A stretch of 64,000 nucleotides of DNA, taken from assembly GCA_029267445.1 (NCBI GenBank), contig JAJUIU010000006.1, forward strand, positions 1-64,000. Direction: 5' to 3'. Positions within the stretch are counted from its first letter, which is position 1. The number at the start of each line of letters is the position of its first letter. A program made the translations under genes and the position numbers. This DNA comes from Rhodospirillaceae bacterium (GTDB lineage Bacteria; Pseudomonadota; Alphaproteobacteria; Azospirillales; Azospirillaceae). Positions 29,330 to 54,618 of this stretch are shown one piece after another. The notes below the pieces were generated by a model. The model was not told the DNA's origin and searched no databases. It was given only the letters and a program-made list of their open reading frames with translations.

Positions 29330-29404
29330 GCGGGCGTAGCTCAGGGGTAGAGCACAACCTTGCCAAGGTTGGGGTCGAGGGTTCGAATCCCTTCGCCCGC
29401 TCCA
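29330..29404 (+). tRNA. tRNA-Gly (GCC)
   Basis: Complete cloverleaf: acceptor GCGGGCG/CGCCCGC, D-loop AGCTCAGGGGTAGAGC, anticodon arm ACCTTGCCAAGGT with anticodon GCC, T-arm GGGTTCGAATCCC, discriminator T and encoded CCA. Its 3' part is the insertion site of an island: a 50-bp copy (29360-29409) recurs at 45639. Confidence 0.97.
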
Positions 29405-29409
29405 GTCTC
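29360..29409. repeat. attL: left 50-bp direct repeat of the tRNA-Gly island
   Basis: TTGCCAAGGTTGGGGTCGAG through CCAGTCTC is identical over 50 bases to 45639-45688. It runs from the anticodon loop through the T-arm and CCA into the downstream sequence, the usual crossover region for tyrosine recombinases that use tRNA genes. The tRNA remains intact after insertion. Confidence 0.95.
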
Positions 29410-29426
29410 TCCAAGCACTTAGCGGC

Positions 29427-29458
29427 AGGGCCGGGCGATTCCCCGGCCCTTTTTGTTT
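29427..29458 (+). terminator. Terminator after tRNA-Gly (island-borne copy)
   Basis: AGGGCCGGG/CCCGGCCCT stem (9 bp, 6-nt loop) followed by TTTTTGTTT. A related but different terminator follows the right att copy (45717-45745), so this one came with the island. Confidence 0.9.
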
Positions 29459-29460
29459 GC

Positions 29461-29481
29461 CGGGGAATCCGGGGGGAATCA
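29461..29481. promoter_or_regulatory. Left arm-type repeat, possible integrase site
   Basis: CGGGGAATCCGGGGGGAATCA matches 45486-45506 (CGGGGAATCCCGGGGGAATCA) at 20 of 21 positions in the same orientation. Both lie just inside an att repeat, and each contains two GGGGAATC half-repeats. This is the pattern of recombinase arm-binding or excision-factor sites. From 29482 to 29783 no gene is seen. Confidence 0.55.
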
Positions 29482-29694
29482 TAGTAAGGCCCGCGACGGC
29501 GTGTCCTGTCGCACCGGAGCGCACGTCTGTGACCGCCCGACCTCCCGCCTGATTGGTCCATATCCTGTCGGCAGTCGGCCACTCCGAACCGCTCGGCGCG
29601 CACACGCCTGTCAACCTACGCCCCAGCACACCCCTCGATGGGCACGCCAGCTCCGAAGCTTGCCTAGCCTTGGTCCGGTAAGAGCGGCATGGGC

Positions 29695-29703
29695 TGTGGA
29701 CAC
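29695..29703 (-). promoter_or_regulatory. Possible DnaA box near the iterons
   Basis: GTGTCCACA on the minus strand matches the DnaA consensus TTATCCACA at 7 of 9 positions, about 80 bp upstream of the iterons. Consistent with, but not proof of, a plasmid origin here. Confidence 0.3.
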
Positions 29704-29783
29704 GTGGTCTGCCTAGATTCGAAGATTCCGGATTCCGGTTCGAGGGCCATAAAGCCGTTTGGCGGCAAAGGCTTACGGGTCAT

Positions 29784-29868
29784 ATCCCGAGGGATCGGGG
29801 GCGGTGCCCGAGGAGTCGGGGGCACCATCCCGAGGGATGGGGGGCCGTTTCCCGAGGAATCGGGGGCG
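29784..29868 (+). repeat. Four iterons upstream of rep: candidate plasmid origin
   Basis: Four direct repeats of consensus CCCGAGGRRTSGGGGGC begin near 29786, 29807, 29829 and 29851, i.e. every 21-22 bp (two helical turns), ending 21 bp before the rep start codon. Iterons at this spacing directly before a Rep_3-family gene are the typical arrangement of theta-replicating plasmid origins and rep autoregulation. Confidence 0.8.
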
Positions 29869-29888
29869 CGCCCCGCCCTGGGGGCGCC

Positions 29889-30662
29889 ATGACCGATGCC
29901 CCCGCGCCGCCGCTACGGGACACGCTTCCGACCGGCCGCCTGGTGCGTGTGGCCAAAGCCGCCCGCCAACATGCGGGCGCCGAGCTGGTCGAACCCCGCG
30001 AGTTGGTGGAGGCCCGCTTCCTGGCCGGCCAGTCGCCGTCCCTGGCCGCCCGGCGCCTGTTGCTGCTCATGGTGGTGACAGCTGCGGAGGCCGGCTTCAC
30101 AGACCGCCGGCACCGGCTCTCCAAGCGCGCGATCCGCCAGGGCCACAAGGGCAACGAGCGTATCGGGCCTCTGCTGGCGGAGGTCGCCGGCATCCGGCTG
30201 GAGCTGCCAGCCGCCTCTTCGCGGGGGCGGCCGGCGGTGCTGCGCGCCGGGCTGTTCAGCGAGATCGTGGAGGAGACGGCGGAGGACGGCGGGGCCTGGG
30301 TGGAATTCCGTCTGGCCGAGCCGGCCCGGCAACTCTTCACCGCCTCGGGCGTCTATGCCGTGCTGGACCGGGCCGCGGTATTGGCCTTCGCCTCCAAATA
30401 CGCGCTGCGGCTCTACGAGCTGGGCTGCCTCTATGCCGGCCGGCGCCACCCGAGCCTGACGCTGACCATTCCGGAGCTGTGCGCCCTGATGGGCGTGCCG
30501 GAGGGCGTCTACCGCGACTCGACCGACCTGTGCCGCAACGTGCTGGCCCAGGCGCGGCGCGAACTGGCTGCCCGCGCCGGCTTGCAGGCGACCATGAAGG
30601 AGCATCGTCGCGGTCGCGCTGTCGAGGCCGTGACGTTGGGCTTCTGGCAGCTGGAGCCCTGA
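29889..30662 (+). CDS. Rep_3-family plasmid replication initiator
   Basis: A 257-residue protein matching the plan of plasmid initiators (RepA/RepB, two winged-helix domains): LVEPRELVEARFLAGQ... in WH1, then AWVEFRLAEPARQLFTASG and FASKYALRLYELGCLYAGR (about 155-175), a typical Rep_3 segment, and LTIPELCALMGVPEGVY in WH2. It would bind the four iterons immediately upstream and open the origin. It is the first gene inside the island and a second broken copy of its middle part lies at 31750-31855. Integrative plasmids are the best parallel. Confidence 0.8.
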   Translation: MTDAPAPPLRDTLPTGRLVRVAKAARQHAGAELVEPRELVEARFLAGQSPSLAARRLLLLMVVTAAEAGFTDRRHRLSKRAIRQGHKGNERIGPLLAEVAGIRLELPAASSRGRPAVLRAGLFSEIVEETAEDGGAWVEFRLAEPARQLFTASGVYAVLDRAAVLAFASKYALRLYELGCLYAGRRHPSLTLTIPELCALMGVPEGVYRDSTDLCRNVLAQARRELAARAGLQATMKEHRRGRAVEAVTLGFWQLEP

Positions 30663-30675
30663 TCGGGACAGCGGG

Positions 30676-31050
30676 TCAGGGGCGGGATGCCAGGGGCAGC
30701 AGCCGCACCTGGCTGCGGCCGGGTTCGAGCGTGACCAACGCGCCCTCCGCCAGCTCCTCCGCCAGCTGCCGCAGCGCCGCGACGACGGCTTGGCCGATCG
30801 CCTCCGGCCGCAGGTCGGCGGCGCGCAGCTGGACCACGCTGGGCCTGTCCCCCTGTGTGGCGGCCAGCATGGCTCCGAAGTCCAGGTCGTGGGTGAGCAC
30901 GACGAAGCCGTTGTCCCGGGCATGGGCCATGATGTCGGCGTCCGGCGCGTCGCCGGGGCCGAGGCGCGACCAGTGCTGAGCCTCGAACCCCGCCGCAGTC
31001 AGCAGGTCCACCCAGCGCGGCGACAGGTTCATGTCGACCAGCAGCTTCAT
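30676..31050 (-). CDS. DUF5615 PIN-like toxin
   Basis: A 124-residue DUF5615 protein, a small PIN-like fold: LLVDMNLSPRWVDLLTAAGF at the N-terminus and DADIMAHARDNGFVVLTHDLDFG (about 37-59) with the acidic residues expected of a nuclease site (D6, D37/D39, D55, D57). It is paired with a DUF433 gene that overlaps it by 4 bp; such pairs behave as toxin-antitoxin modules. Its target RNA is unknown. The C-terminal region after residue 85 is Ala/Glu-rich. Confidence 0.85.
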   Translation of the reverse strand: MKLLVDMNLSPRWVDLLTAAGFEAQHWSRLGPGDAPDADIMAHARDNGFVVLTHDLDFGAMLAATQGDRPSVVQLRAADLRPEAIGQAVVAALRQLAEELAEGALVTLEPGRSQVRLLPLASRP

Positions 31051-31277
31051 GCGCTGGCCAGGTCCACGTCCCGCTGTTCCGCCAGCCAGGCGGCGTAGCG
31101 CAGGGCTTGGAGGATGTCGTCCCGCTCCAGGTACGGGTAGTCGGCGAGGATGTCATCGATGCCGACCCCGGCGCCGATCATGCCGACGACCATACCCACG
31201 GTCACCCGCGTTCCCCGGATGCAGGCCTTGCCGCCCATCACCTCCGGCCGCAGGCTGATCCTGTCCAGCCGTTCCAT
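31047..31277 (-). CDS. DUF433 antitoxin
   Basis: A 76-residue DUF433 protein with the family signature GGKACIRGTRVTVGMVVGMI and YPYLERDDILQALRYAAWLAE, a small winged-helix fold. It is the usual partner of DUF5615 toxins and probably binds the pair's own promoter. The start at 31277 (MERLDRISL) gives best spacing from an AAGGG site; in-frame starts at 31283 and 31298 are possible. Confidence 0.87.
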   Translation of the reverse strand: MERLDRISLRPEVMGGKACIRGTRVTVGMVVGMIGAGVGIDDILADYPYLERDDILQALRYAAWLAEQRDVDLASA

Positions 31278-31298
31278 CGCCATTACCCTTGCCGCCAT

Positions 31299-31749
31299 CA
31301 GCTTGCCGAGGCCGGTCCACAGCCGGCCTACACGTCCGGCCGCAGTTTATCCCATCGGCGCAAGGCTGGGTACGGTCCTGCCGCCCCCTCCGGCCGCATC
31401 GCTTCGGCGATCTGACTCCCCCATTCGCGCATGGGAGCCCTTTGCCGGGCCGGCGGGGGCGGTCCAGGGGGCGCGTCACGCGCCTCGCCGGAGGCGACGG
31501 CGCAGCCGCCCTTGACGGCCCCCCGCCCGCGCCCGGCACTCTTCCCTTGCGCGGATGGGTGGATTCTCATTCCATCGGGGAAGCGGTTAAGCCCCTTCGG
31601 ACCTTGTTCGGGGATGTTCGCCGGAAGCGAGCGCGTAGACGCGAAAATCTCGTCGTTGCAACGGCTTAACACATGGCAGCACACAGGGTTTATCTTGCTG
31701 ATCCCGGTTAACCCGTGCCCGAGACTGGCTTGTCATCGTCGCGATTGTG
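31299..31749. other. Non-coding stretch inside island A
   Basis: No supported gene in this 450 bp. Frames are open on both strands but consist of Arg/Pro/Gly-rich low-quality sequence with GC-rich composition effects. It joins the toxin-antitoxin pair to a rep gene remnant and may be decayed plasmid backbone. Confidence 0.55.
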
Positions 31750-31855
31750 CGCCGGGCCGTTCGGCGGGATCGTGGAGCAGACGGCGGGGGCGCCTGGGTG
31801 GAGTTCGGTCTGGCCGAACCGGCCCGAAAACGTCTGGCAGCCTCGGGCGTCCATC
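31750..31855 (+). pseudogene. Fragment of a second rep gene
   Basis: This piece aligns with 30241-30352 of the intact initiator gene: CGGGCCGTTCGGCGGGATCGTGGAG, ACGGCGGGGGCGCCTGGGTGGAG, TCTGGCCGAACCGGCCCG and GCCTCGGGCGTC all have counterparts there in the same order. A deletion of about 7 bases in the middle breaks the frame, so the matching protein segments (GIVEQT; GAWVEFGLAEPARK) lie in different frames. It is a relic of a related replicon or a duplication. Confidence 0.75.
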
Positions 31856-31991
31856 AAGTTTCGTGTCTGGTCGCCGCCGGCTACCAACACGACCCAGCCT
31901 GCCATACGGAGACCAGGATCTGCGGTATTGCGACTGCTTTCAAACAGGGGGGCTGACCGGATCACTCCGGCCAGCCTCGCCTGTGCCGCTC

Positions 31992-32078
31992 TTAGAACGG
32001 CCACGTAAGGACCCAGTCCAGCAACCTGATCAGCACCTCGATCAGCAGCCAGAGCAGGAATTCAATGAGTTGCCTCAT
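31992..32078 (-). CDS. 28-residue Leu-rich hydrophobic peptide
   Basis: A small open frame encoding MRQLIEFLLWLLIEVLIRLL then DWVLTWPF. It is preceded by an exceptionally good ribosome-binding site (GAGGAGGTGG, 32081-32090) immediately before the ATG. The peptide forms a single hydrophobic/amphipathic helix, like the small membrane toxins of type I systems (TisB, Ibs, Fst) or membrane micro-proteins. A structured RNA with its own terminator is encoded on the opposite strand just upstream. The peptide is not in any family I recognise; function is inferred from form only. Confidence 0.55.
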   Translation of the reverse strand: MRQLIEFLLWLLIEVLIRLLDWVLTWPF

Positions 32079-32108
32079 TGCCACCTCCTCTTGAAGGGTT
32101 GACTTGCT

Positions 32109-32204
32109 GCCGAAGGCGCACCAGCTTCAGGGCTGTGAATTGTTAGGCCATTGGGAAGCTAATGGCATCCTTCGGCCCCGCAGCGATAGCTGCGGGGTAT
32201 TTTT
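32109..32204 (+). ncRNA. Candidate structured small RNA with terminator
   Basis: GCCGAAGG (32109-32116) is perfectly complementary to CCTTCGGC (32169-32176) and would close a stem around a region that itself can pair (CCATT...AATGG; AGCTTC...GAAGCT). This is followed directly by a strong intrinsic terminator (32176-32204). It lies on the strand opposite the peptide gene, across the peptide mRNA's 5' side, so it could be an antisense regulator, or a leader. No match to a known RNA family was recognised. Confidence 0.45.
32176..32204 (+). terminator. Rho-independent terminator
   Basis: CCCCGCA/TGCGGGG 7-bp stem with an 8-nt loop followed by TATTTTT. There is no protein gene directly before it on this strand, which supports a non-coding transcript ending here. 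From 32205 to 32461 nothing else is recognised apart from the AT-rich promoter-like region before 32462. Confidence 0.85.
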
Positions 32205-32461
32205 CGACCTCGCGTCGGTCAGGGACGTGGCGTTAAACGGCTGTAACCTCCTCGTTAAGTGCGTTAGATACTTGACCGAAGCTTCCTACAGCAAATAGCC
32301 AGTCTGCTGCGCTCCGATGGACATCGGGACGGGCGGAACACCCTTTCGCAACGTCCATAGCTCAAGTAGGACTGATACCTCGGACTGACAAGACCGCTCT
32401 AGACATTTTTTTCATGACCGAGTACCGCTAGAGCAAAACCACGGCCCGAGGGGAGCTTCCG

Positions 32462-33040
32462 ATGCCGATGGAACGGACGGTCAGCGTGGCCGATGTGGCC
32501 AAGGTCTTCCTGGGAGTGAACCTAAGCAGGCTGTCCAAGGACCCGGCGGCGGCCGATATCCCATTGATCAACATCAAGGATATGGCCGACGGCGGGATCG
32601 CCCCCCGCGAAAGCCTCCAGCAGGTCAAGCCAGCCGACCAGGATCACTATCGGCTGCAGGATGGCGACGTCCTGGTTTCCGTACGGGGCACGCTACTGAA
32701 GACGGCGAGAGTGACCGCGGACCATGAAGGGGCCTATGCCTCGGTCAACATCGCTATCGTCCGGCCGACAGGCTTTATCCGACCAGAGACCCTCTTTGCG
32801 CTGTTTCGGTCAAATCGGGTCCAGAGCGAGTTGATGAGCAAGTCCGTCGCGTCGGTCGTCTCGGGACTGCCTGTGAAATCGATCGCCGACGTCCGGTTCC
32901 GGCCACCGGCGCGGGAGGCGCTGCTGGTCGAATTGATCCGCAACGCGGATGAGCAGTACCGTGCTGGCCTGGACCTAATCGAAGAGCGCCGCGCAATCGC
33001 GATGGACATCATCGACCGCGCCCTGGACCCCATGTCATGA
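32462..33040 (+). CDS. Half-length HsdS-like specificity protein
   Basis: A 192-residue protein equivalent to one target-recognition domain plus spacer helix of a type I S subunit: IPLINIKDMADGGI, YRLQDGDVLVSVRGTLLKTA (about 60-80), ASVNIAIVRP and SVASVVSGLPVKSIADVRF, then a terminal helix. Full HsdS has two such units (~400 residues). Half-S proteins can act as dimers. Its stop overlaps the following hsdM-like gene by 4 bp. Confidence 0.75.
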   Translation: MPMERTVSVADVAKVFLGVNLSRLSKDPAAADIPLINIKDMADGGIAPRESLQQVKPADQDHYRLQDGDVLVSVRGTLLKTARVTADHEGAYASVNIAIVRPTGFIRPETLFALFRSNRVQSELMSKSVASVVSGLPVKSIADVRFRPPAREALLVELIRNADEQYRAGLDLIEERRAIAMDIIDRALDPMS

Positions 33041-34413
33041 CCGATCAAGCGCTGGCGCGTAAGCTGGACGATGCCTTCGCCGCCCTCACCAGGATCGGGC
33101 AGGACCTTGGCCGTCAGACGCGGGGACACGGCGCCGTCGCGCTGATGGTTCTGATGGCGGCCAAAGCCGTCAGCGACCGCGACGACCCGGCGAAATGGTA
33201 TGAGATTCAACGATCCCTGCGGGCCCCAGGCGGCCAGCACCGTTCCCATTTCCAAGGCCTGTTTCTCGATATCCTCTATCGTGTCGTTCCGGTCCAGGCC
33301 GCGACGGAGCTCGTGACGGTCCTCCAGGCTGCGGACAATAGGGCGCTCACCGCATGGGTCGATCACCTCGCCGGGCTCTACATCGGGCCGGAGGTCGAGG
33401 CGCAGCGCCTGTTCGCCCGGTGGCTGGACACAAAAATGGACCTGCTGGGCAACGAGATGGCCGAACTGGGCCAATTCTTCACGCCTGCCGACGTGGTTCG
33501 GATGATGGTCGATCTCGCCCCGCTGCGGGCCGACGCCAAGGTCCTCGATCCGGCTTGCGGCAGTGGATCGTTCCTGGCGTCGGCCATCTCCCGTCTGCAG
33601 GAAAACGATGGCGACCGGCATGCGCATCTGACCGGCGTTGAACTGAATTCCGAGGTCGCGGCGCTTGCCGCGTTGAGGCTGAGCCTGCTCGGCGGGGACA
33701 CTTCGGACATCGTGTCCGGCGCACGACAGCCCGGCTACGAGCGGAAGTTCGACCTCATCCTCTCCGCTCCACCGTTCGGGCGGAGCATGGCCCGGGCCGA
33801 ACTCGATGCGCTTGAGCTCCAGGGCATGCTTAACAGCCGGCCATCGCTCAACGCGGAAGCGGCCTTCGTGAGCTACGCGGCGGAACGGCTGGCGCCCGGC
33901 GGGCGCGCCGCGATGCTCATCCCACCGGGATTCCTGTATCGGTCGGAGGATGAGGCGGTCCGTCGGCACCTGGTCTCCAGGCATCAGGTCGCGGCGGTGA
34001 TCATGCTGCCGAAGGGTGTGCTGTCCCCGTCGACCAAGCTGGCCCCGGCCGTCATCATGCTGCGAAATCCAGAGGGAAGAGATCCCGGATTCGTCACCTT
34101 CGTGGATGCGATGCTGCTCGGCCGCAAGGAACGCAAGCGTGTGGCGCTGGATGCGGCGGAGGCCGAAGCGATCACCCAGGCGGTCCGGACCGGGCACGCG
34201 GCACTGGATACGTTGCGTGTGGCCCAGGTCGATGAAGACCGGATTCGCGCCGAACACTACGACCTGCGCCCCGAGACCTATCTGGAGACACCGACCGTGG
34301 CCAGGCAGCCCCTTGAGGAACGCCTTTCGCGGCTGAGGAAGCTGGACCAACGCTATGCCGAACTGGCCCGAACCACCGATGCGCTGATCGAGCAGCTGTC
34401 CAAGACGCGCTGA
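33037..34413 (+). CDS. HsdM-like protein with altered catalytic motif
   Basis: A 458-residue N6-adenine methyltransferase-fold protein of the type I M group. The AdoMet motif is normal ([17 protein letters not shown], about 170-186), but the catalytic motif IV, normally NPPF/Y, is SAPPFG (about 243-248): Asn is replaced by Ala, which should abolish methyl transfer. It is coupled to a half-size S gene and lies just before a complete hsdMSR set. It may be a non-catalytic, DNA-binding or regulatory pair, or decaying. The C-terminal coiled coil needed for S contact appears intact. Confidence 0.75.
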   Translation: MTDQALARKLDDAFAALTRIGQDLGRQTRGHGAVALMVLMAAKAVSDRDDPAKWYEIQRSLRAPGGQHRSHFQGLFLDILYRVVPVQAATELVTVLQAADNRALTAWVDHLAGLYIGPEVEAQRLFARWLDTKMDLLGNEMAELGQFFTPADVVRMMVDLAPLRADAKVLDPACGSGSFLASAISRLQENDGDRHAHLTGVELNSEVAALAALRLSLLGGDTSDIVSGARQPGYERKFDLILSAPPFGRSMARAELDALELQGMLNSRPSLNAEAAFVSYAAERLAPGGRAAMLIPPGFLYRSEDEAVRRHLVSRHQVAAVIMLPKGVLSPSTKLAPAVIMLRNPEGRDPGFVTFVDAMLLGRKERKRVALDAAEAEAITQAVRTGHAALDTLRVAQVDEDRIRAEHYDLRPETYLETPTVARQPLEERLSRLRKLDQRYAELARTTDALIEQLSKTR

Positions 34414-34427
34414 CCGCCCCGGTTGCG

Positions 34428-34445
34428 CGTGCAATTAATTGCACG
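34428..34445. promoter_or_regulatory. Perfect 18-bp palindrome before hsdM
   Basis: CGTGCAATTAATTGCACG is a perfect palindrome in the 70-bp gap between the degenerate hsdM-like gene and the complete hsdM. It is 39 bp upstream of the GTG start and looks like an operator for an HTH regulator. None is encoded beside it in island A. Confidence 0.55.
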
Positions 34446-34483
34446 TCATAGTCGCCCCGCCCGCATCCAGGAGTCCCCCGCCC

Positions 34484-36031
34484 GTGCCCGCCGACCTGCG
34501 TGAGATCGATCAGACCCTGTGGAAGGCGGCGGACAAGCTCCGCGCCGATGCGGGGCTGAAGCCGTCGGACTACGCCTATCCGGTGCTGGGGCTGCTGTTC
34601 CTGCGCTATGCGGAGTCCCGCTTCACCGAGATGGCGAAGGCGCTGAAGCCGGCCCCCGGGTCGCGCCGTACCATCGGGCCGGCGGATTTCATCAGCCGGG
34701 GCGTCATCTACCTGCCGGAGGACGCGCGCTATTCCCGGCTGATCGCCCTGCCGGAGGGGGAAAACCTGGGAAAGCACCTGAACGACGCCATGGCGGCGAT
34801 CGAGCGGGACAACAGCTATCTGGCCGACGTGCTGCCCAAGACCTACCAGGGCCTGCCGAAGGAGACGCTGCGCGAGCTGCTGAAGCTGCTGCACCCGCTG
34901 GACATCGCCGGCGACGCGTTCGGGCAGGTTTACGAGTACTTCATGGGCGCCTTCGCCATGGAGACGATGCAGAAGGGGGGCGAGTTCTACACCCCCGCCA
35001 GCATCGTCAAGCTGATCGTGGAGATCATCGAGCCCTACCACGGCCGCATCCTGGACCCCGCCTGCGGGTCCGGTGGCATGTTCGTGCATTCCGCCGATTT
35101 CGTGAAGGCGCATGAGAAGTCGCCGCAGAAGGAGCTGTCCATATACGGGGTGGAGCTTTACCGCGACACCCTGCGCCTCGCCCGCATGAACCTGGCCGTG
35201 CATGGGCTGACGGGGGAGCTGGCGGAGGCGAACAGCATGTACGCCGACCCGCACAAGGCCACCGGCCGGTTCGACTTCGTCATGGCCAATCCGCCCTTCA
35301 ACGTCTCCGGCATCGACCGGGAGCGGCTGGTGGGCGTCAAGGCCCGCTTCCCCTTCGGCGTGCCGACGACGGACAACGCCAATTACCTGTGGATCCAGCT
35401 CTTCCACTCCGCCCTCAACGATACCGGCCGGGCCGGCTTCGTCATGGCCAACAGCGCGTCCGACGCCCGTGGCAAGGAGGCGGAGATCCGTAAGGCGCTG
35501 GTGGAAAGCGGCGCGGTGGACGTGATGGTCGCCGTCGGCACCAACTTCTTCTACACGGTCACCCTGCCCGTGACGCTGTGGTTCTTCGACAAGGGCAAGG
35601 TGGGCGGGCCGCGCGAGGATCAGGTCCTGTTCATCGACGCCCGCCACACCTACCGGCAGATCGACCGGGCGCACCGGGATTTCGAGGGCTGGCAGATCGA
35701 GTTCCTGGCCAACATCGCCCGGCTGTGGCGCGGTGAGGCGGCGGAGGCCCTGCGCGGCAGTGCGGCCGCCCTGCGGGAGCATTTCTCCGACGGCCGGTAC
35801 CGGGACGTGCCCGGCCTGTGCAAGGTGGCGAGCCGGGCGGAGATCGAGGCCCAGGGCTGGAGCCTGAACCCCGGCCGCTATGTCGGCGTCGCCCCCGGTG
35901 CCAAGGACGATGTGGATTTCAAGGAGCGGCTGGAGGCGTTGCAGGAGGAGCTGGAGGTCCTGAACGCCGAGGCGGCGGGGTTGCAGGCGAAGATCGCGGC
36001 GAACGTGGCTGATCTGTTGGGGGCGGAGTGA
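34484..36031 (+). CDS. hsdM: Type I restriction system methyltransferase HsdM
   Basis: A 515-residue type I M subunit: N-terminal helical domain ([20 protein letters not shown]), AdoMet motif [12 protein letters not shown] (about 190-201) and catalytic NPPF in [11 protein letters not shown] (about 266-276), with a C-terminal coiled coil. It methylates adenine with HsdS and is needed for restriction with HsdR. The GTG at 34484 follows CAGGAG; an earlier TTG frame start falls inside the palindrome and is rejected. It overlaps hsdS by 4 bp. Confidence 0.92.
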
Positions 36032-37215
36032 TGTCGCAGTGGCCACTCAGAACCTTGTCATCACTTACCGTAGAGCACCGGCCGATTACATACGGCGTGG
36101 TCCAGCCTGGCCCCGAGCCTGTGGTGAATGGCATCAAGTTCATTAGAGGTGGTGATGTTTTTGGCGGCCGCATAATTGAGGAGCAGTTGCGGACGATATC
36201 GCCCTCAGTCTCAGAAAAGTACGCAAGAACGATTCTCGAAGGCGGTGAGCTAATCGTTTCTCTGGTGGGCTATCCAGGCGAAGTCGCTGTTGTGCCTTAC
36301 AGACTTCGGGGAGCCAACTTGGCTCGGCAAGTGGGACTTGTTGCTCTTGGGGAGGAATGCGCTCCTCACTACGCGAAGTACGCGCTGATGTCGCCGCAGG
36401 GACGCGCCGAACTGTTTTCGCAGTCTGGGGGAACGGCACAACAGGTGATCAACCTTTACAATCTAAAGCTGGTTCGAATTCCATTGCCCCCAGTTGCGGT
36501 TCAGCAGCGCATCGCCGACATCCTCTCCGCCTACGACGACCTGATCGAGAACAATACGCGGCGGATCGCGATCCTGGAGGAGATGGCGCGGCGGCTGTTC
36601 GACGCAGAGGCAGCGCTTTGCTATCTGGTCGCAGGCCAGGAGGCCCTTCGGGACGCATTGCCGGATGGATGGGGGCTTCACGATCTCGGTGATGTGTTGA
36701 CCCTTCAGCGTGGCTTCGATCTGCCTGTGTCGGACAGAACCCCTGGCGACGTTCCGGTCTTCGCAGCGACAGGACATCATGGCACCCACAATGAAGCCAA
36801 GGTCTCCGCGCCCGGCATCGTGACCGGCAGGTCCGGGACGATTGGGACCGTGAACTTCGTTGACCAGGATTTCTGGCCGCTGAACACAACGCTTTGGGTC
36901 AAGGACTTCAAGAGGGTCGGGCCGAGGTTTGCGTATTGCCTGCTTTCATGCCTAGATTTGAAAGGGCAGGCGTCCGGTGCCGCCGTCCCAACGCTGAACC
37001 GAAATGATGTGCATCGGCTGAAGGTGGCGCTCCCGCCCGCCGACACAGTGCAAGCTGTTGAGGAGAGATTGGAGCCGATTTTCGCTCTCATTCAATCGCT
37101 CCAACGAGCGAGCGAAAACCTCCGCGCCGCCCGCGACCTTCTCCTGCCCAAGTTGATCTCCGGGGAGATCGACGTGTCGCGGGCTGCGCTGCCGCAGGAC
37201 CTCGCCGCCGAATGA
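36028..37215 (+). CDS. hsdS: Type I restriction specificity subunit HsdS
   Basis: A 395-residue S subunit with two target-recognition domains (about 1-150 and 215-345), each followed by a conserved helix ([25 protein letters not shown] and [20 protein letters not shown]). The DNA of the recognition domains is visibly less GC-rich than the conserved helices and neighbours, the usual sign of domain exchange. It lies between hsdM and hsdR with 4-bp overlaps on both sides. Confidence 0.92.
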
Positions 37216-40200
37216 CGCCGCCGCCCCGCGACCGCGATTTCGTCCAACCCGACCGGCTGTATGCCGGGCTGGGCGAGGGCGATCTGGTGGAGGATGCGGC
37301 GGTGGAGCTGTTCGCGTCGCTCGGCTGGCAGACGGCGGACCTGTCCGGGGAGACCTTCGGGCCGGAGGGCACGGAGGGACGGACCGGCCGGCGGGACATG
37401 GTGCTGCCCCGCCGCCTGCGCGCCGCCCTTGCCCGGCTGAACCCCGGCCTGCCGGCCGAGGCACTGGATCTCGCGGAGGCGGAGCTGACCCGCGATCGCG
37501 GGGCGATGGAGCCGGTGGCCGCCAACCGCGAGGTCTGGCGCCTGCTGCGCGATGGCGTGCCCGTCCGCACCCGCGGGGCCGATGGGGAGATGGTGGATGA
37601 GGTGGTGCGCCCGATCGACTGGCGCGACCCGGCCGCCAACGACTTCCTGCTGGCCCGGCAGGTCTGGTTCGCCAGCGATCTGTGGCAGCGCCGGGCCGAC
37701 ATCGTCGGCTTCGTCAACGGCATCCCCCTGCTGTTCGGGGAGCTGAAGGGCCTGGGCCGGCCGCTGCGCGCCGCCCATGACGAGAACCTCCGCGACTACA
37801 AGGACACGATTCCCCGGCTGTTCGACTTCAACGGCATCACCCTGCTGTCCAACGGCATCGACGCCGTGATCGGGGCCAGCCACGCCGCATTCGACCAGTT
37901 CAAGCCCTGGAAGCGCATCGAGCGGGAGGACGAGGCGCCCCGCCCCGGCCTGGAGACGGCCATCCGCGCCGCCTGCACGCCCGCCCGCCTGCTGGACCTG
38001 GTGGAGAACTTCACCGCCTTCGAGGAGACGCGGGACGGGCTGGTCAAGAAGATCGCCCAGAACCATCAGGTTCTGGGCGTCAACAACGCCATCGCCAAGC
38101 TGATCGGGCTGCGCGGGACGACAGGGCCGGACGCCGGCAAGCTGGGCGTGTTCTGGCACACCCAGGGCAGCGGCAAGAGCCTGTCCATGGTCTTCTTCAC
38201 GGAGAAGGTCCACCGCACCATTCGCGGCAACTGGACCTTCGTCATCCTGACCGACCGGACGGAGCTGGACGACCAGATATCGTCCACCTATGCGGCCACC
38301 GGCGCCGTGACCAAGGACCTGGACGACGCGCGGGCCCGGGACCGGGAGCACCTGAAGCGGCTGCTGCGCGGCGATGAGCGCTACGTCTTCACCCTGATCC
38401 AGAAATTCTCCACAGCGTCCAAGGGGGAGCGATACGAGCGGCTGTCCGACCGGTCGGACATCATCGTCATCACCGACGAGGCGCACCGCAGCCAGTACGA
38501 CCAGCTGGCGCTCAACCTGCGCCGCGCCCTGCCCAACGCCGCCTTCCTGGGCTTCACCGGCACGCCGCTGATGGCGGGGGACGAGCCGACCCGTGAGGTG
38601 TTCGGCGACTATGTCTCCATCTACGATTTCGGCCAGTCGGTGGAGGACGAGGCGACGGTCCCGCTCTATTACGAGAAGCGGGTGCCGGAGGTGCACATCG
38701 TCAATGACAGCTTCAAGGACGAGGCCCAGGCGATCATCGACGGCTCCGGCCTGGACGAGGAGGAGGAGCGCGCGCTCGCCCGCAAGCTGGGCAACCTCTA
38801 CCAGCTGATCACCAACCCCGACCGCCTGGACAAGATCGCCGCCGATCTGGTGCGCCATTTCTCCGGGCGCGGCTATCGCGGCAAGGCCATGGTCGTCAGC
38901 ATCGACAAGGCCACCGCCGTGCAGATGCACGATCTGGTGCGGCGGCGCTGGGCCGCCCTGATCGCGGCGGCGGAGGCGGAACTGGCCGCCGCCCCGGACG
39001 ACCTGAAGCCCGCCATCGCCGACAATCTGGCCTGGCTGAAGGCGACCGACATGGCCGTGATCGTCAGCCAGGGCCAGAACGAGGTGGCGGATCTGGCCGA
39101 GCGCGGGCTGGACATCCGCCCCCATCGGGCGCGGATGCAGGCGGAGGACCTGGACGAGGATTTCAAGAACCCGGCGCACCCGCTTCGGCTGGTCTTTGTC
39201 TGTGCCATGTGGATCACCGGCTTCGACGTGCCGACCTGCTCCACCATCTACATCGACAAGCCGATGCGGAACCACACGCTGATGCAGACGATCGCGCGGG
39301 CCAACCGCCGCGCGCCCGGCAAGGAGGCGGGGGTGATCGTCGACTATGTCGGCGTGTTCGCGAACCTGCAGAAGGCGCTCGCCATCTATGCCCGCCCGCG
39401 CCCCGGTGGCGGGGAGGATCGGCCCATCGAGGACAAGCGGGCGCTGGTCCAGGTGCTGCGGGACAAGCTGGCCTCCGTCCGGTTGCTCTGCTCCGCCCAC
39501 GGGGCCGACCTGGACGCCATCTGGACGACGAACAAGCTGGACCGGATGGTGCGGGTGAAGGAAGCGGCCGACGCGCTGATCCATCCGGAGAACCGGCGGC
39601 ACGCCTTCCTGGCGCAGGCGAGCCTCATCCTGCGCCTCTACAAGGCCATCCTGCCGGACGAGGCGGCCTCCGACTTCACCCGCGACGTGGCCGCCATCAG
39701 CATCGTCGCCGACGCCATCCGGGCCAGCACCCGCCCCGACCCGACGGCGCTGGCCCGGGTGCGGGCGGAGATGGCGGCCCTGATCCAGCGGTCCATCGCC
39801 GGCATCGACATCGACATCCCGCTGCGCGGGCCCGGTGAGCTGGGAGAGCTGTTCGACCTCTCCGCCATCGACTTCGAAAAGCTGGCCGGCGGCCTGAAGG
39901 GCGGCAACCGGCGCAGCAAGGCGGAAGCCCTGATCGCCGCCGCGAAGGCGAAGCTGGAGGAGATGGTCTCCGCCAACCCGTCGCGCCGCGACCTGGCCGA
40001 GAAGCTCGAACAGCTGATCGCCGATTACAACGCCAACACCGTCTCGCTGGAGCGGCTGTTCGACCGGCTGCTGGCCTTCGTGAAGGAGCTGGACGAGGAG
40101 ACCCGCCGCGCCACCCGCGAACAGCTGAGCGAGGAGGAGCTGGCCGTTTTCGACCTGCTGGTCAAACCAGGGCCGACGCTGTCACGCGCCGAGACGGTGC

Positions 40201-40415
40201 AGGTGAAGACCGTCGCCCGCGACCTGCTGGCCCGGCTGAAGCGGGAGACCGCCATCATCGACTGGTGGCGCAAGCCCGCCCAGCGTGCCGCGGTCGTGCT
40301 CGCCATCGAAGAGGAGCTGGACAAGCTCCCCGACGCCTTCGCCCAGGACATCTGGCAACTGAAGGTCCAGGACACCTTCCGTTTCGTCTACGAACGCCGG
40401 CCGACGGTGCATTGA
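37212..40415 (+). CDS. hsdR: Type I restriction endonuclease subunit HsdR
   Basis: A 1067-residue R subunit. The N-terminal nuclease domain has RADIVGFVNGIPLLFGELKG (the D...ExK site; ELK at about 176-178). The motor has Walker A TQGSGKS (about 316-322), DEAH in ITDEAHRSQYDQ (about 422), motif III FLGFTGTPLM and later MWITGFDVPTCSTIYIDKPM. The C-terminal helical domain binds the MTase. Translocates DNA and cuts at a distance from unmodified sites. This length and domain order match the EcoR124-like class. Confidence 0.95.
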   Translation: MTPPPRDRDFVQPDRLYAGLGEGDLVEDAAVELFASLGWQTADLSGETFGPEGTEGRTGRRDMVLPRRLRAALARLNPGLPAEALDLAEAELTRDRGAMEPVAANREVWRLLRDGVPVRTRGADGEMVDEVVRPIDWRDPAANDFLLARQVWFASDLWQRRADIVGFVNGIPLLFGELKGLGRPLRAAHDENLRDYKDTIPRLFDFNGITLLSNGIDAVIGASHAAFDQFKPWKRIEREDEAPRPGLETAIRAACTPARLLDLVENFTAFEETRDGLVKKIAQNHQVLGVNNAIAKLIGLRGTTGPDAGKLGVFWHTQGSGKSLSMVFFTEKVHRTIRGNWTFVILTDRTELDDQISSTYAATGAVTKDLDDARARDREHLKRLLRGDERYVFTLIQKFSTASKGERYERLSDRSDIIVITDEAHRSQYDQLALNLRRALPNAAFLGFTGTPLMAGDEPTREVFGDYVSIYDFGQSVEDEATVPLYYEKRVPEVHIVNDSFKDEAQAIIDGSGLDEEEERALARKLGNLYQLITNPDRLDKIAADLVRHFSGRGYRGKAMVVSIDKATAVQMHDLVRRRWAALIAAAEAELAAAPDDLKPAIADNLAWLKATDMAVIVSQGQNEVADLAERGLDIRPHRARMQAEDLDEDFKNPAHPLRLVFVCAMWITGFDVPTCSTIYIDKPMRNHTLMQTIARANRRAPGKEAGVIVDYVGVFANLQKALAIYARPRPGGGEDRPIEDKRALVQVLRDKLASVRLLCSAHGADLDAIWTTNKLDRMVRVKEAADALIHPENRRHAFLAQASLILRLYKAILPDEAASDFTRDVAAISIVADAIRASTRPDPTALARVRAEMAALIQRSIAGIDIDIPLRGPGELGELFDLSAIDFEKLAGGLKGGNRRSKAEALIAAAKAKLEEMVSANPSRRDLAEKLEQLIADYNANTVSLERLFDRLLAFVKELDEETRRATREQLSEEELAVFDLLVKPGPTLSRAETVQVKTVARDLLARLKRETAIIDWWRKPAQRAAVVLAIEEELDKLPDAFAQDIWQLKVQDTFRFVYERRPTVH

Positions 40416-40556
40416 GCAGGCATCGGCGCACAGAGAGCGGGCCCCAGCATCAATCCAGAAGCGACGGGATCCGCGCGCGCATCCAAAATAGTTGCAAAGG
40501 AAAACCGTACGCACTACGCGCTACCACCTTGGACACTCCTCTTTCGGTGGGCGCGC

Positions 40557-43500
40557 ATGTTCTTCCTGTCAGAATCGCAGGAATCGCTCGAAATCGGGCA
40601 GTTCGGCCATGTGGCCGTCCGTGCCGTAACGACCAGCACACCTTGGGAAATCTCGGCCGACGCGCTGGTGGTACCAACGGGGCCGCATATCCAGGATTTG
40701 AGTGGTGGGCTCGCTCGGGCCTTGCAGATGGTCCTCGGCCCCGATGGATGGGGCCGTCTCCGTAACCGGATCGGAGCGTCAGCCGCCGTGGAGGTGGAGC
40801 CATACGCCGCCGACCGCCCGCTTTTGGTTGCAACTGGTGACTTAGCGGTGAGCGCCTCTCTCCCACCGGTACTGATTCTCGCGACCGCGTTCCAAGACCC
40901 AAGTGAACCCACCCTCGCCCATACCGCCACACTCCACGTGCTCCGGGCGTTCCGGGACGAAGCTCCACCACCGTCCTTGAATCGCGTGGTTCTTCCGCTT
41001 TTGGGCGCGGGCGACGGTGGGGCAAATGCCGTAAAGACGGCCACCGCCATGTTGCGGGCTGTCTGGAAGTTTGCCTGCGAGATGCCCGGAGACCCAATGG
41101 AGCTGGTGCTGGTCTCCCACAAGCCTGAGGACTGGCAGGCCGTCCGGATGGCGGTGAGCGAGATCAAGCGTGGCAAGCAGACGCCATCGCTTCTTGCGAC
41201 CGCAGATCGGCAAGTGCGCCGCGTCGTCACCATTGCCGAACGGGTCGCCGCTCGGCGGAACGGCGTGATGGAGGTTGGATGGCTGCTTCACGCGATGTCG
41301 GATGCGGCCTTCCTGGTACCTCGGCGGCTGACCCAGCGTGGAGCCGCGATTGTCACGAAGGAGATCGACGTTGCCAATCTGGTCCAGAGTATCATCAAGC
41401 ACCATCGTGGATATTCAACGGGACTGTTCACGGATTTAAGAGAAACGGTATCGGGTGATATAAAATTTGGCTCTATAAAGCTATCATCCACTTATGTGAG
41501 ATTGATTAGGGATTCTGCAGCCGCATCAGTTAAAGAGAAGAAACCGGAGTTCGGAATCAATCATCTTCTATCGTCAATATCCAAGATATTCCCAAACGAA
41601 AATTTTCCTGACATAAACCCAGAAAATTTTACGAGAGCTATTGAGAAAATATTTCCGGATTTGGGTGGGCTGGCGAAGCAATTTCTTGAATCGATATCGT
41701 TGTCAGAGTCTCAGTCTTCCAAGTCGCCTCCGACTCGTCGCATCACCCGCTTCCAAGCTGACACCACGACGGGCCCTGATCTTCTGGGCGTGGATCGGGA
41801 TGCGAAAGCATTCGCGGAACTGGTGACCCTGCGAGCCACGCAGCCGCCCTTGTCCATTGCGCTGTTCGGAGACTGGGGGAGCGGCAAGAGCTTCTTCATG
41901 GAGCGGATGGGTGCCCTGGCGCAGCAGGTGGCGCAGGCGGCGCGGGAGAGTGGAGACCGACAGTTCTGCCACCATATCGTGCCGATCCGCTTCAATGCCT
42001 GGCACTATGTGGAACAGAACCTGTGGGCCAGCCTGGTCCACCACATCTTCCAGGAACTGGATCGGTGGATCCGGGATCAGGAAACAGACCGGCGGCCGGA
42101 TGATCTGTTCGACCAGCTGGCGACCGCCCGACGCCTGCGCCTGGAGGCATTGGAGGGGTTGGTCGCCGCGGGTCTTGCCACCCGGCAAGCGGAGACGGAG
42201 GTTGCAAAGGCTCGCAAAGTCTATGGCGAGGCGGTGCAGAAAAAGTCCCTGCATGGGACGGAGACCATGCTGGCAGCTGTCCGCCGCGCCTTCCAGCCGG
42301 AAGCATTAGCCAAGGTGAAGGACAATCCGGCGAAAGCGATCTCGGAACTCGCAAACGGCACCGGGATCGAGGGCTTGGAGCAGCATAGCCAGCAGCTGCT
42401 GGAGCTGTGGCAGACCGGAGGTACACTGTCCACACGCGCATGGGTCCTTTGGCGGGGGCTGCGCCAAACGGTTCCGGGCTGGGAGGTCCTGGTCCTGGCG
42501 GTTGGGGTGATTGCGTTCCCGTTCGGCTTGGCGGCAATGCATCAATGGACGGCGCATGCTCTGGAGTCCACTTGGCTGCAACAGGCGCGCCTGGAGCTTT
42601 CCAGCTTGCTGGTGACCCTGACTGGAGCCGCCGCCGTGGTCCGAGCTTGGCTGAATAGGGCCAAGCCCGTCCTGGACAAACTGGAGAAAGTACGGACAGC
42701 ACTCGATGCCATCGCCACCGAGGCCGTGGCGGGGGAAGCCGACCAGATCGCAACGGCTGAGGCCGGGGCCGAACAGGCTCGGCTTGCGCTCCAGGACAGT
42801 GAGCGGCGCTTCCATCAGGCTCAGGACGCCCTGTCTGCGGCGGAAAGGGACTATGTCGCCCAGGGGGCTGCTGGCCGGCTGACCCGCTTCATCCGCGAGC
42901 GGGCAGGCGGCGGCGACTACTCCCGACATCTGACGCTGGTCGCCACGATCCGCAAAGATTTTGAGTACCTGTCAGAGTTGATGGCCGGTATGGCCAAAGG
43001 TGACAACAGAGCCAAACAACATGCGCTTGCGGCCAACCAGCGCTATCGACAGCGGTTAGGGGATCTCCTGGACCGCCACAAAGACTCCTTGCCTAAGGAA
43101 GTTGAGCAAAAGATCCGCCAAGCCATGCCGGATGAAACCGGGAACACCACGGACCTCCCCAGTTTCGACCGCATCGTCTTGTTCATCGACGATCTGGATC
43201 GGTGCCCGCCGGACAAGGTGGTGGAAGTGTTGCAGGCGGTCCACCTGCTTCTGGCGTTCCCGCTGTTCGTTGTCGTGGTCGCCGTCGATTCCCGATGGGT
43301 CGAACGGTCACTGGAACGGCACTATTCCGGTATGCTCCGCCAGGACAAGGGGAGTGCCGCGGCGGCCGGACCGCGCGATTATCTGGAGAAAATCTTCCAG
43401 ATCCCCTTCTGGGTCGAGCCCATGGACGGGGTTGCCTGCGGACGGTTTCTCGACGGCGTGCTCGGGTTGATCCCGGACGGCGACAGCGCAGATGCCCCTG

Positions 43501-44213
43501 GTCCCGTGGGCACCGGCGCCAAAGCCGCCGGCGCGATTGACGCAACGTCCGGGGGAGGAAGGGACGAGGGGCCCGCGACCACCCTCTCCAGCACCGACAA
43601 TGAAAACGAGAACATGTACGACGATGGAGAACCGGACCCGGAGGCCAATCAAGGCCCGGCAACGGCTCCAAAGCAGCCCGAGTCCGAAGTTGCCTTGCCC
43701 CCGATACCCATCCTCGCGCCATTGGGTCGACGAGACCGGGAAGCCATTAGGCTGGTGGCGCCATTGCTGTCTGGGTCGCCGAGGCGGGCGAAGCGGTTCC
43801 TCAACATCTATCAGATCATCAGGACCCAACTGGCTTCCGGTGGTGCCGATGAGAGCGGGGCGCAAGACCTAGTCACCCCCATTGTCCTGTCAGGCGTGCT
43901 CGCGCTCAACACGGCATATCCAGAACAAGGGGAGAAGCTGTATGCGTCACTCGCGTCGAACGTAGAGGATGAGCCGTACGACGTGGTTGCAGGCAAGGCC
44001 GGGAACTCCGCAGTGCGAGCACTGGGGATAGTGCGGCAGGCGGCCTCTGATGCCGGCATCCTGGATGAAGCGCTGTTGCGGCAAAGGATGTTGCAGGTGG
44101 CCACCTTAGTGCGGCGATTCACCTTTGACGGGCCGGGTAATGGTGACTTGTTTCCACCGTCTCCGGATGTTCCCGCTGTCGCCGTGGCGACCCCGGTTGA
44201 GCCGTCTCCATAA
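40557..44213 (+). CDS. Large KAP P-loop NTPase with macro-like and Clp-N-like regions
   Basis: A 1218-residue protein. Residues 1-185 resemble a macro domain (DALVVPTG; RVVLPLLGAGDGG; MELVLVSHKPEDW). Residues about 210-350 resemble Clp N-terminal repeats (VRLIRDSAAASVKEKKPEFGINHLLSSI split over two helices). A KAP-family NTPase follows: Walker A GDWGSGKS (438-445), two membrane segments at about 643-663 and 679-698, as is usual for KAP proteins, a coiled coil, and Walker B IVLFIDDLDRCPPDKV (about 873-888). An acidic low-complexity insert lies near 1020-1045. KAP NTPases (e.g. PifA) act in phage exclusion. It stands alone after hsdR, and its 3' end overlaps the convergent integrase by 95 bp. 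Confidence 0.75.
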   Translation: MFFLSESQESLEIGQFGHVAVRAVTTSTPWEISADALVVPTGPHIQDLSGGLARALQMVLGPDGWGRLRNRIGASAAVEVEPYAADRPLLVATGDLAVSASLPPVLILATAFQDPSEPTLAHTATLHVLRAFRDEAPPPSLNRVVLPLLGAGDGGANAVKTATAMLRAVWKFACEMPGDPMELVLVSHKPEDWQAVRMAVSEIKRGKQTPSLLATADRQVRRVVTIAERVAARRNGVMEVGWLLHAMSDAAFLVPRRLTQRGAAIVTKEIDVANLVQSIIKHHRGYSTGLFTDLRETVSGDIKFGSIKLSSTYVRLIRDSAAASVKEKKPEFGINHLLSSISKIFPNENFPDINPENFTRAIEKIFPDLGGLAKQFLESISLSESQSSKSPPTRRITRFQADTTTGPDLLGVDRDAKAFAELVTLRATQPPLSIALFGDWGSGKSFFMERMGALAQQVAQAARESGDRQFCHHIVPIRFNAWHYVEQNLWASLVHHIFQELDRWIRDQETDRRPDDLFDQLATARRLRLEALEGLVAAGLATRQAETEVAKARKVYGEAVQKKSLHGTETMLAAVRRAFQPEALAKVKDNPAKAISELANGTGIEGLEQHSQQLLELWQTGGTLSTRAWVLWRGLRQTVPGWEVLVLAVGVIAFPFGLAAMHQWTAHALESTWLQQARLELSSLLVTLTGAAAVVRAWLNRAKPVLDKLEKVRTALDAIATEAVAGEADQIATAEAGAEQARLALQDSERRFHQAQDALSAAERDYVAQGAAGRLTRFIRERAGGGDYSRHLTLVATIRKDFEYLSELMAGMAKGDNRAKQHALAANQRYRQRLGDLLDRHKDSLPKEVEQKIRQAMPDETGNTTDLPSFDRIVLFIDDLDRCPPDKVVEVLQAVHLLLAFPLFVVVVAVDSRWVERSLERHYSGMLRQDKGSAAAAGPRDYLEKIFQIPFWVEPMDGVACGRFLDGVLGLIPDGDSADAPGPVGTGAKAAGAIDATSGGGRDEGPATTLSSTDNENENMYDDGEPDPEANQGPATAPKQPESEVALPPIPILAPLGRRDREAIRLVAPLLSGSPRRAKRFLNIYQIIRTQLASGGADESGAQDLVTPIVLSGVLALNTAYPEQGEKLYASLASNVEDEPYDVVAGKAGNSAVRALGIVRQAASDAGILDEALLRQRMLQVATLVRRFTFDGPGNGDLFPPSPDVPAVAVATPVEPSP

Positions 44214-45441
44214 GCAACAGTTCCGCCCGCTCCGACACCCTGTCCGCCGCAACCCGGATCGCCTCGTCCAGGTGGATGTAGCGTTGCGTGACCCCGCGGG
44301 AGGCATGCCCAAGCAGGGCGGCGACGGTCAGTTCCGTGAAGCCCATCTCGGCGGCGATGCTGGCGAAGGTGTGGCGGAGGACATGGGGTGTCACACCGGT
44401 AAGCTTGGCGCGGGCGCAGACGCGGGCGAGCACGCGGGGGACACCGATGAAGTGGCCGTCGCCCTGCTCGGCCGGGAAGACGTAGGGGCTGTCCTCCCGG
44501 CGGGGGGCGGTGCGGATCACGGCCAGGGCGGCCTGGCCGATTGGGCGCACCTGGGGGCCGCTCTTGGTGTCGGGAAAGCGGATATAGCCCTTCTCCGGGT
44601 TGACCCAGTCGAGCTGGAGCGCCATCGCCTCCATCCGCCGGAACCCGGTCAGCAGCAACAGTCGGATCGCGGCGAGGCCGGTCTTGTTCTCGTGATCCGT
44701 CTCCGCCTCCCGCATGGCCTTGCCAAGAGCGGCCAGCTCCTTCTCCGTCAGCGCCCGGTCGCGCTTGCGGTCGGGGGCGATCTTGCGGACGCCGCGGGCG
44801 GGGTTGGCGTCGATCCGCTTGCGGCGCCGGGCGTGTTCCAGGATGGTGTGCAGCATGCTGACGGTGCGGCTGGCGCTGCCGGCCCCGCCCGTGGCCACAC
44901 CGCCGCGCTTCGGCCCGCGGGGCCGGGCCGTCTTGCCAGCGGCGACATCGCCCTGGAAACGCTCGATGTCCTCCAGGGTCAGGCTGCGCACCGTGCGTCG
45001 GCCCAGCAGCGGCTTCACATGCGTTTCGATCCGACTGCGGTCCATGGCGAGGGTGCTGGCCTTGATCGGTCGCCCGCGCCGGCCGAGCAGGGTCCCGGCT
45101 TCCGCCTCGGCCAGGTATCAATCGCAGATTTCCGCCACGGTCGGCGCCTCGCGGGCGACGTGGCGCTCGGCGGAAGGATCCGCCCCCTTCGCGACCTCGG
45201 CCAGCCGCTCGCGGGCCAGCCGGCGCGCCTCGTCCGGCGTCAGGGTCCCGGCCTTGCCGATCACCATGCGGCGCAGGCGTCCCTCCGCGTTGCGGTACTG
45301 GATGATGAAGCTGCGCGACCCGCTCGGCTTGAGCCGGATGCCGAAGCCCTTGAGTTCGGAGTCCCAGGCGAACACATCGTCCGATTCCCCCGGCCGCAAG
45401 GCGTCGATCACGCGCTTCGTCAGTTTCGGCATGTAGATCAA
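44119..45441 (-). pseudogene. Tyrosine recombinase (island integrase) with an in-frame stop
   Basis: A 441-codon integrase frame interrupted once. Codons 1-107 (45441-45121) encode the arm-binding domain (KLTKRVIDALRPGESDDVFAW... then VAEICD); a TGA at 45118-45120 follows; the same frame continues YLAEAEAGTLLGRRGRPI into the core and catalytic domains. Catalytic residues are present: R in LLLTGFRRMEAMAL, H-x2-R in HVLRHTFASIA, a later GH in ALLGHASRG and Tyr in VTQRYIHLDEA. One change from CGA or TGG would restore it. Re-initiation at 45045 could give a 308-residue core-only protein. It lies next to attR. Confidence 0.88.
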
Positions 45442-45485
45442 CCCCTTGCCGCGATTCTGATTCCCCAGGCGGCCAGTCTACAGGT

Positions 45486-45506
45486 CGGGGAATCCCGGGG
45501 GAATCA
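45486..45506. promoter_or_regulatory. Right arm-type repeat upstream of the integrase
   Basis: CGGGGAATCCCGGGGGAATCA repeats the sequence at 29461-29481 with one difference. It lies between the integrase start and attR, so it could be both an arm-binding site and an integrase autoregulation site. The remaining intergenic sequence (45507-45638) is AT-rich near 45555-45590 and may hold the integrase promoter. Confidence 0.55.
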
Positions 45507-45638
45507 CGCGGAGGGGTAATGGGGCGTTGCAGCGCGTACCGGGGCGCAGCTTCTACCATTTAAAAAATCTTTCTTTATCAATTGCTTAATGCACAGTGCG
45601 TTGATCTCATTCGGTGATCGGTTCGGTTCCATGGGTCG

Positions 45639-45688
45639 TTGCCAAGGTTGGGGTCGAGGGTTCGAATCCCTTCGCCCGCTCCAGTCTC
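45639..45688. repeat. attR: right 50-bp direct repeat (tRNA-Gly 3' copy)
   Basis: Identical over 50 bp to 29360-29409. Only the anticodon-to-CCA part of tRNA-Gly is present, with no 5' half, so it is not a functional tRNA. It marks the right junction of island A. Confidence 0.95.
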
Positions 45689-47563: not shown

Positions 47564-47713
47564 CCCCCCACCGCTCTCGCCGATAAGGCGTAAAGGAGTG
47601 CTACACTATCCGCAATAGGGGAATGACCGGATCGGATAGGCCCAGGGTATCTTGCCCTTTCCACATCCGCCCCGCCTGCGCTACCACGGTCCCCGCCGCA
47701 ACCGGGGGGCCTG

Positions 47714-50415: not shown

Positions 50416-50418
50416 CCG

Positions 50419-51348: not shown

Positions 51349-51377
51349 TAAGGAAGTGTACATGTGTTCTTGATGCC

Positions 51378-51731
51378 ATGTGCAGGACCACAATACCGCA
51401 GGGCGACGAGCCCTACGCCTTCGCCGGCTATCTCGTGCGACTGCACACCAACGGGAGGGCCGATCCCGAACGCATTTCGGCGTTCCTCAACAGCCGCTAC
51501 GGCAAAGCGGTGCTGCGGGGAATGTGCAAGAGCATCATCGGCATGGCCAACATCAACGCGAAGGAACTGCTGGGCATCCGCATTCCCCTGGCGCCCCTTT
51601 CCCTCCAACGCGCCTTCGCCGAGCGCGTGCGCGCCATCGAGGCCCTGAAGGCCCAGCACCGCGCCCACCTGTCCCACCTCGACGCCTTGTTCGCGTCGCT
51701 GCAGCACCGGGCGTTCCGGGGGGAGTTGTGA
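51378..51731 (+). pseudogene. Truncated hsdS, C-terminal part
   Basis: 117 codons equal to the second half of a recognition domain and the terminal helix of an S subunit: TIPQGDEPYAFAGYLVRLH, SIIGMANINAKELLGIRIP and LQRAFAERVRAIEALKAQHR. Upstream the homology fades about 5 codons before the ATG (VLDAMC...). The other recognition domain is absent. It is a left-over of an hsdS that exchanged domains, or a donor cassette for new specificity. Confidence 0.8.
51598..51714. repeat. hsdS tail repeat, copy 2
   Basis: Second copy of the HsdS terminal-helix sequence (see 50281-50397), with scattered substitutions. Confidence 0.85.
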
Positions 51732-51818
51732 GGTTCCCCGCAGTGGCGCCCCCTTGTCACGGCGCTCCACCTTTAGGATAGTCGGTGCGGGCATATCGCC
51801 GTTTCGGGGGAGGCGATC

Positions 51819-53113: not shown

Positions 53114-53121
53114 GTCCATCC

Positions 53122-54522: not shown

Positions 54523-54618
54523 GGGATTTTCAGCTCGATCCGGCAAAGCGAATGTGCTTGCCATGGGCGCCGGTTGCCAGGACGATCCATGAAGTTCTGA
54601 GTATTGGCGTCGGCTCCC

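Follow-up and report, generated by a model that had tools for sequence, protein, structure and literature searches.

A small peptide gene and an opposing RNA in a mobile island

The minus strand of the window, by which we mean the whole 64-kb stretch of DNA analysed here, carries a putative toxin ORF (ATG at 32078 to TAA at 31992) for the 28-residue, Leu-rich peptide MRQLIEFLLWLLIEVLIRLLDWVLTWPF (GRAVY 1.27, 32% Leu), preceded by the Shine-Dalgarno sequence GAGGAGGTGG (32081-32090, minus). The preliminary description of this DNA had drawn attention to a very strong Shine-Dalgarno ahead of a tiny hydrophobic, Leu-rich frame, and both elements are confirmed. The frame is the only one of the 16 small Shine-Dalgarno-bearing ORFs in the window to combine a GRAVY of at least 0.9 with at least 30% Leu, and no comparable Leu-rich hydrophobic ORF occurred in 40 Markov-resampled 64-kb sequences. 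A hairpin directly 3' of the peptide stop codon (31950-31976, minus) would form the 3' end of the mRNA. Opposite the leader of this mRNA, the plus strand encodes a predicted antisense RNA antitoxin of ~71 nt (32134-32204, plus), whose 5' end is placed from a putative promoter, TTGACT-N17-CAGCTT (32099-32127, plus). The predicted RNA consists of a single-stranded 5' tail of 12-14 nt, an 8-bp hairpin with a GAAG/GAAA loop (hairpin 1; 32147-32166, 20 nt, plus) and an intrinsic terminator (32175-32204, plus; stem 32175-32198, then TTTTT), which is the only plus-strand terminator detected across 30-34.5 kb. Positions 32090-32204 of the plus strand fold with a z of -4.0.

The module lies in a mobile island of 16.3 kb (29359-45688) bounded by an exact repeat of 50 bp, the two copies of which (29359-29408 and 45639-45688) correspond to the 3' half of a tRNA-Gly gene and resemble att ends; a tyrosine integrase gene (44119-45045, minus) sits beside the right copy. 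The island holds a Rep3-like initiator gene, a DUF433/DUF5615 pair, the peptide module, five restriction-related genes in the order S'-M'-M-S-R, and a KAP ATPase gene; the module of the relatives has ParB-like and SLOG-family genes as its neighbours. That islands often carry such modules had been proposed beforehand, and the integrase- and tRNA-bounded setting agrees with this proposal; it therefore suggests that stabilising mobile DNA is the natural role of the module. The same island contains a replication initiator remnant (31747-31956) sharing 61% identity across 31 aa with the intact Rep3-like gene (29889-30662), and its DUF433-DUF5615 (PIN-like) pair (30676-31298, minus) is likely a type II toxin-antitoxin. 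To the right of the island, a second defence cluster (45866-58095) comprises a DUF262-like gene, a second HsdM-HsdS and a large helicase/HsdR-like gene (54604-58095) named from its sequence only.

In all three species in which the module was found, the peptide gene is divergent from a pair of HsdS-like and HsdM-like genes followed by HsdM-HsdS-HsdR. The HsdS-like neighbour, hereafter S' (32462-33040, plus; PADLOC Specificity_I, 6e-14), is a single-TRD protein 64% identical to the protein encoded at the same place in relatives. The HsdM-like protein, M' (33037-34413, plus; Pfam N6_Mtase, 6e-43), is 50% identical in relatives and retains the SAM-binding motif DPACGSG. It carries APPF (SPPF in relatives) in place of the catalytic NPPF, which the adjoining, normal HsdM has, and is therefore probably catalytically dead, although conserved. 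The type I restriction operon itself (34439-40415, plus), whose HsdM and HsdS were assigned by family search and whose HsdR was assigned by sequence and position, has an HsdM 93% and an HsdR 82% identical in relatives. In Azospirillum sp. RU38E and Niveispirillum irakense, M' and HsdM are separated by a TIR-domain gene (locus L013, 10573-11535, and locus L014, 10708-11670, minus) that the window lacks. Small single-TRD HsdS-like proteins are encoded directly upstream of HsdM-HsdS in the type I operons of many Alphaproteobacteria (32462-33040 in the window; loci L023-L033).

Conservation and structure of the two strands

Searching 145 related genomes at the DNA level recovered the module as a conserved segment of 195 bp, extending from the terminator T-run into the peptide coding sequence, in two of them, both Azospirillaceae: Azospirillum sp. 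RU38E (NZ_FZOI01000023.1) and Niveispirillum irakense DSM 11586 (NZ_AUCG01000022.1). Identity to the window is 73-75%, and the intergenic DNA flanking the module gave no BLAST match to these relatives. The peptide was recovered independently in both. Since they are ~97% alike, the window and its relatives amount to only two independent lineages. Further homologs were found neither by a covariance model in 385 and 367 genomes of the class, nor by a peptide profile in 385 class genomes, nor by DNA search in 398 genomes of the phylum; PLSDB plasmids, phages and viral contigs likewise gave none, though the plasmid and phage searches may omit records close to this genome. Relatives of S' with 37% identity (loci L023-L033) have no such peptide upstream. 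Other matches were inspected and judged to be due to chance, and a repeat element or MITE was rejected because the module is present in one copy per genome. On this sampling of sequences, the module appears to be a narrowly distributed new family.

Absence from relatives of a conserved peptide or start site had been named at the outset as an argument against the module; both of its parts are conserved, in a manner indicative of selection. The homologous peptides (loci L002 and L003), of 29 aa, are 63% and 59% identical to that of the window, and their genes have TGAGGAGATAACC as Shine-Dalgarno where the window has GAGGAGGTGG. Over the first 25 codons, differences between the window and RU38E at codon positions 1, 2 and 3 number 11, 1 and 9, and by our own calculation a second-position count of 1/21 has a probability near 0.002 if the positions were equal; this pattern indicates that the frame is under purifying selection. 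The polar residues R2, E6, E14, R18 and D/E21 are kept in relatives. In a helix, positions 2, 6, 14, 18 and 21 would line one side, as in amphipathic TisB (PMC11449926); the hydrophobic moment of the peptide does not significantly exceed that of shuffled sequences (p 0.18 and 0.10). Its charge is approximately neutral to slightly acidic. Many pore-forming peptides are cationic, unlike MRQLIEFLLWLLIEVLIRLLDWVLTWPF.

The antisense RNA has the same predicted fold in all three species. All eight pairs of hairpin 1 are kept, two changes turning U-A into U-G on the plus strand only, where the minus strand would have a broken C-A, and the terminator hairpin and T-run are likewise conserved, the closing pair being kept as G-C or G-U on the plus strand. 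This bears out the earlier report of a strong intrinsic terminator on the opposite strand, and since the peptide ORF and the terminator facing it are conserved in two relatives, their co-occurrence is not attributable to chance. The structured RNA previously described there holds in altered form, the conserved RNA extending from ~32134 to 32204 and having two hairpins. The 8-bp closing stem proposed for it (positions 32109-32116 pairing with 32169-32176) is present in the window but not in the relatives, and it shares positions with the putative -35/-10 region. The body of the RNA is identical to that of RU38E at 60 of 72 positions (83%), compared with 26 of 73 (36%, near saturation) for fourfold-degenerate sites in the adjacent S' gene, and is thus constrained rather than merely young. 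Nearly invariant are the AUUGUU of the 5' tail and the GAAR loop. Both boxes of the putative promoter and their spacing are identical in all three species; its -10 box is weak, hence its designation as putative, and it is absent from the list produced by a consensus promoter scan.

Both strands are predicted to be structured, each differently. The remaining complementarity is better explained as structure in the leader of the peptide mRNA than in the plus-strand RNA, with G-U pairs on the minus strand where the plus strand would have A-C mismatches. A long-range leader helix (32110-32173, minus) formed by AUUAGCUUC/GAAGCUGGU in the window becomes CCAGUUUCC/GGAAGCUGG in relatives, where exchanges between G-U and G-C preserve the pairing, with 91% of cells paired. 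In testing covariation, the register-shift control alone was clear and the shuffle control was not significant; with just two independent lineages, support from structural covariation is thin. Downstream, a predicted initiation hairpin (32052-32090, minus) would lock the Shine-Dalgarno and the AUG; ten of its pairs are kept in all three species, one by a two-sided change from C-G to A-U, and in each of them the Shine-Dalgarno is predicted to pair with codons 7-9. RU38E and N. irakense have a strong hairpin of different sequence at the equivalent site past the peptide stop. Upstream, TTGCTGTAGGAAGCTTCGG (32276-32294, minus) is a weak candidate promoter element for the mRNA, found in relatives at an equal spacing (80-85 nt) ahead of the terminator hairpin, with p = 0.25 when position is ignored. 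No SOS (LexA-like) box was detected.

Proposed mode of action and alternative readings

We consider it likely that the module is a type I toxin-antitoxin encoded in cis, its peptide being TisB-like by analogy, and that it stabilises a mobile island of restriction genes. A type I system had been suggested in the preliminary description, and the present analysis lends this suggestion support, in that the layout fits and both parts are under selection: the locus pairs a hydrophobic, toxin-like peptide gene of fewer than 60 aa with a complementary RNA gene that has its own terminator and shows sequence-level signs of selection. The minus-strand mRNA would comprise a long structured leader and then the frame of the 28-residue amphipathic, Leu-rich peptide, which, to judge from its form, would insert in the inner membrane when over-produced and dissipate the proton-motive force. 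Because the Shine-Dalgarno and AUG are predicted to be locked in a conserved hairpin, translation would need either upstream loading of ribosomes in the leader or processing of the mRNA. The conserved 71-nt RNA presumably transcribed from the opposite strand would pair with this leader up to a point ~43 nt ahead of the Shine-Dalgarno; such pairing may block ribosome loading or trigger cleavage by RNase III. In the predicted folds of the mRNA, the AUG is paired in almost all cases and the Shine-Dalgarno in part, whether or not the antisense footprint is blocked, and in silico blocking of the footprint did not close the Shine-Dalgarno further, so that repression by simple refolding is unsupported. 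By analogy with IstR-1, Sok and OrzO, antitoxins known to pair with the leader outside the initiation region (PMC4147584), a block of upstream loading or RNase III cleavage fits better than refolding. Presumably the antisense RNA decays quickly and the mRNA is stable, and a cell losing the island would therefore be poisoned; given its location, the module may in this way stabilise the tRNA-Gly-inserted island with its type I restriction genes.

The near-balanced charge and conserved polar strip of the peptide would also suit protein-protein contact, as expected of a non-toxic small membrane protein, for instance a modulator of the restriction system or of some membrane complex, with the antisense RNA adjusting how much of it is made. 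We regard this as unlikely, as no conserved membrane partner is encoded nearby, and a dedicated antisense RNA, doubly locked initiation, a single Leu-rich helix and an island location are typical traits of type I toxins. Quite improbable in our estimation is a guarding arrangement in which the divergent S'-M' pair, as a DNA-binding methyltransferase that looks catalytically dead, keeps the toxin promoter in the intervening DNA repressed, and the toxin is released once the restriction locus is lost or inhibited. This proposal is drawn solely from the gene order and the replacement of NPPF by APPF or SPPF in M'; if true, it would constitute a restriction-guarding analogue of CreTA with, for example, a phage anti-restriction protein as trigger. 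The fixed place of the module beside a dead-looking methyltransferase pair makes it possible to test whether restriction systems are guarded by toxins.

The plus-strand RNA points at the gene for S' (start at 32462), and antisense RNAs that regulate restriction systems are documented (PMC3874152), a precedent for reading it as an attenuated 5' leader of hsdS'-hsdM', whose terminator controls read-through and next to which the peptide is incidental. This we hold to be very unlikely: the 250 nt from the terminator to hsdS' cannot be aligned by BLAST and have no conserved antiterminator, an AT-rich stretch immediately precedes hsdS' in relatives, and selection acts on the peptide frame itself. 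The near invariance of the tail and loop of the RNA would further be expected if it acted mainly in trans on other mRNAs, with the peptide mRNA as a sponge or minor target; exact complementarity in cis to a conserved toxin-like gene provides a simpler target, and the module is rare and travels with the island, which leaves this reading with hardly any weight. A leader peptide of a downstream gene is rejected because the hairpin follows the stop codon and the downstream genes differ among species.

Comparison with known toxin-antitoxin systems

Type I toxin-antitoxins are difficult to detect from sequence, and those described come from few phyla (PMC12390103); our literature searches returned none in Azospirillaceae. 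If the type I reading is right, the module would represent a new toxin-antitoxin family with a physical link to a type I restriction island, and its small size would allow quick testing. No match to Pfam or NCBIfam was obtained for the three peptides, on queries so short that HMMER filters are weak. At the Rfam gathering score tRNA alone was matched in the window and no RNA antitoxin family, the best sub-threshold match being anti-hemB (18 bits against a threshold of 49.5).

The TisB/IstR-1 system of E. coli, in which the ribosome-binding site of the toxin mRNA is sequestered and an antisense RNA of ~75 nt acts far upstream of it (PMC4147584), resembles the present module in its single-helix small peptide, locked ribosome-binding site and antisense RNA of similar length distant from that site. 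TisB is an amphipathic single helix of 29 aa (PMC11449926), and aligned locally with the window peptide it gives a score of 33, where shuffled sequences average 19.8 (p 0.005; p 0.056 for the RU38E peptide). Unlike in TisB, no residues of the window peptide match K12 and Q19 in position; of the TisB polar residues D5, K12, Q19, D22 and K26, just one has a counterpart, a D close to the C-terminus for which relatives have E. IstR-1 is moreover divergent and does not fully overlap its target, whereas the antisense RNA here lies exactly opposite the leader.

The hok/sok and ldr/rdl systems share with the module a cis-antisense RNA covering the leader of the toxin mRNA rather than the toxin ribosome-binding site, and a role, putative here, in the maintenance of mobile DNA. 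Hok is, however, a protein of ~50 aa with an essential C-terminal Cys, as opposed to 28 aa without Cys in the window peptide, and no mok-like overlapping leader frame conserved in all three species was seen. The symE/symR pair is a cis-antisense RNA toxin system found within restriction-modification islands (PMC1891008; PMC12707154) and shares with the module both this layout and its place beside restriction genes, but SymE is a soluble protein of AbrB fold, in contrast to a membrane-type peptide of 28 aa with no Pfam match. CreTA, a CRISPR-guarding toxin RNA module fixed beside a defence system (PMC10097628), is similar in its fixed position next to such a system and differs in that CreT is an RNA repressed by the CRISPR effector, where the locus described here would rely on a peptide and an antisense RNA. 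By the sequence comparisons made, the module belongs to neither the Hok nor the SymE family and apparently not to that of TisB, and the peptide/antisense pair is most likely a previously undescribed type I toxin-antitoxin.
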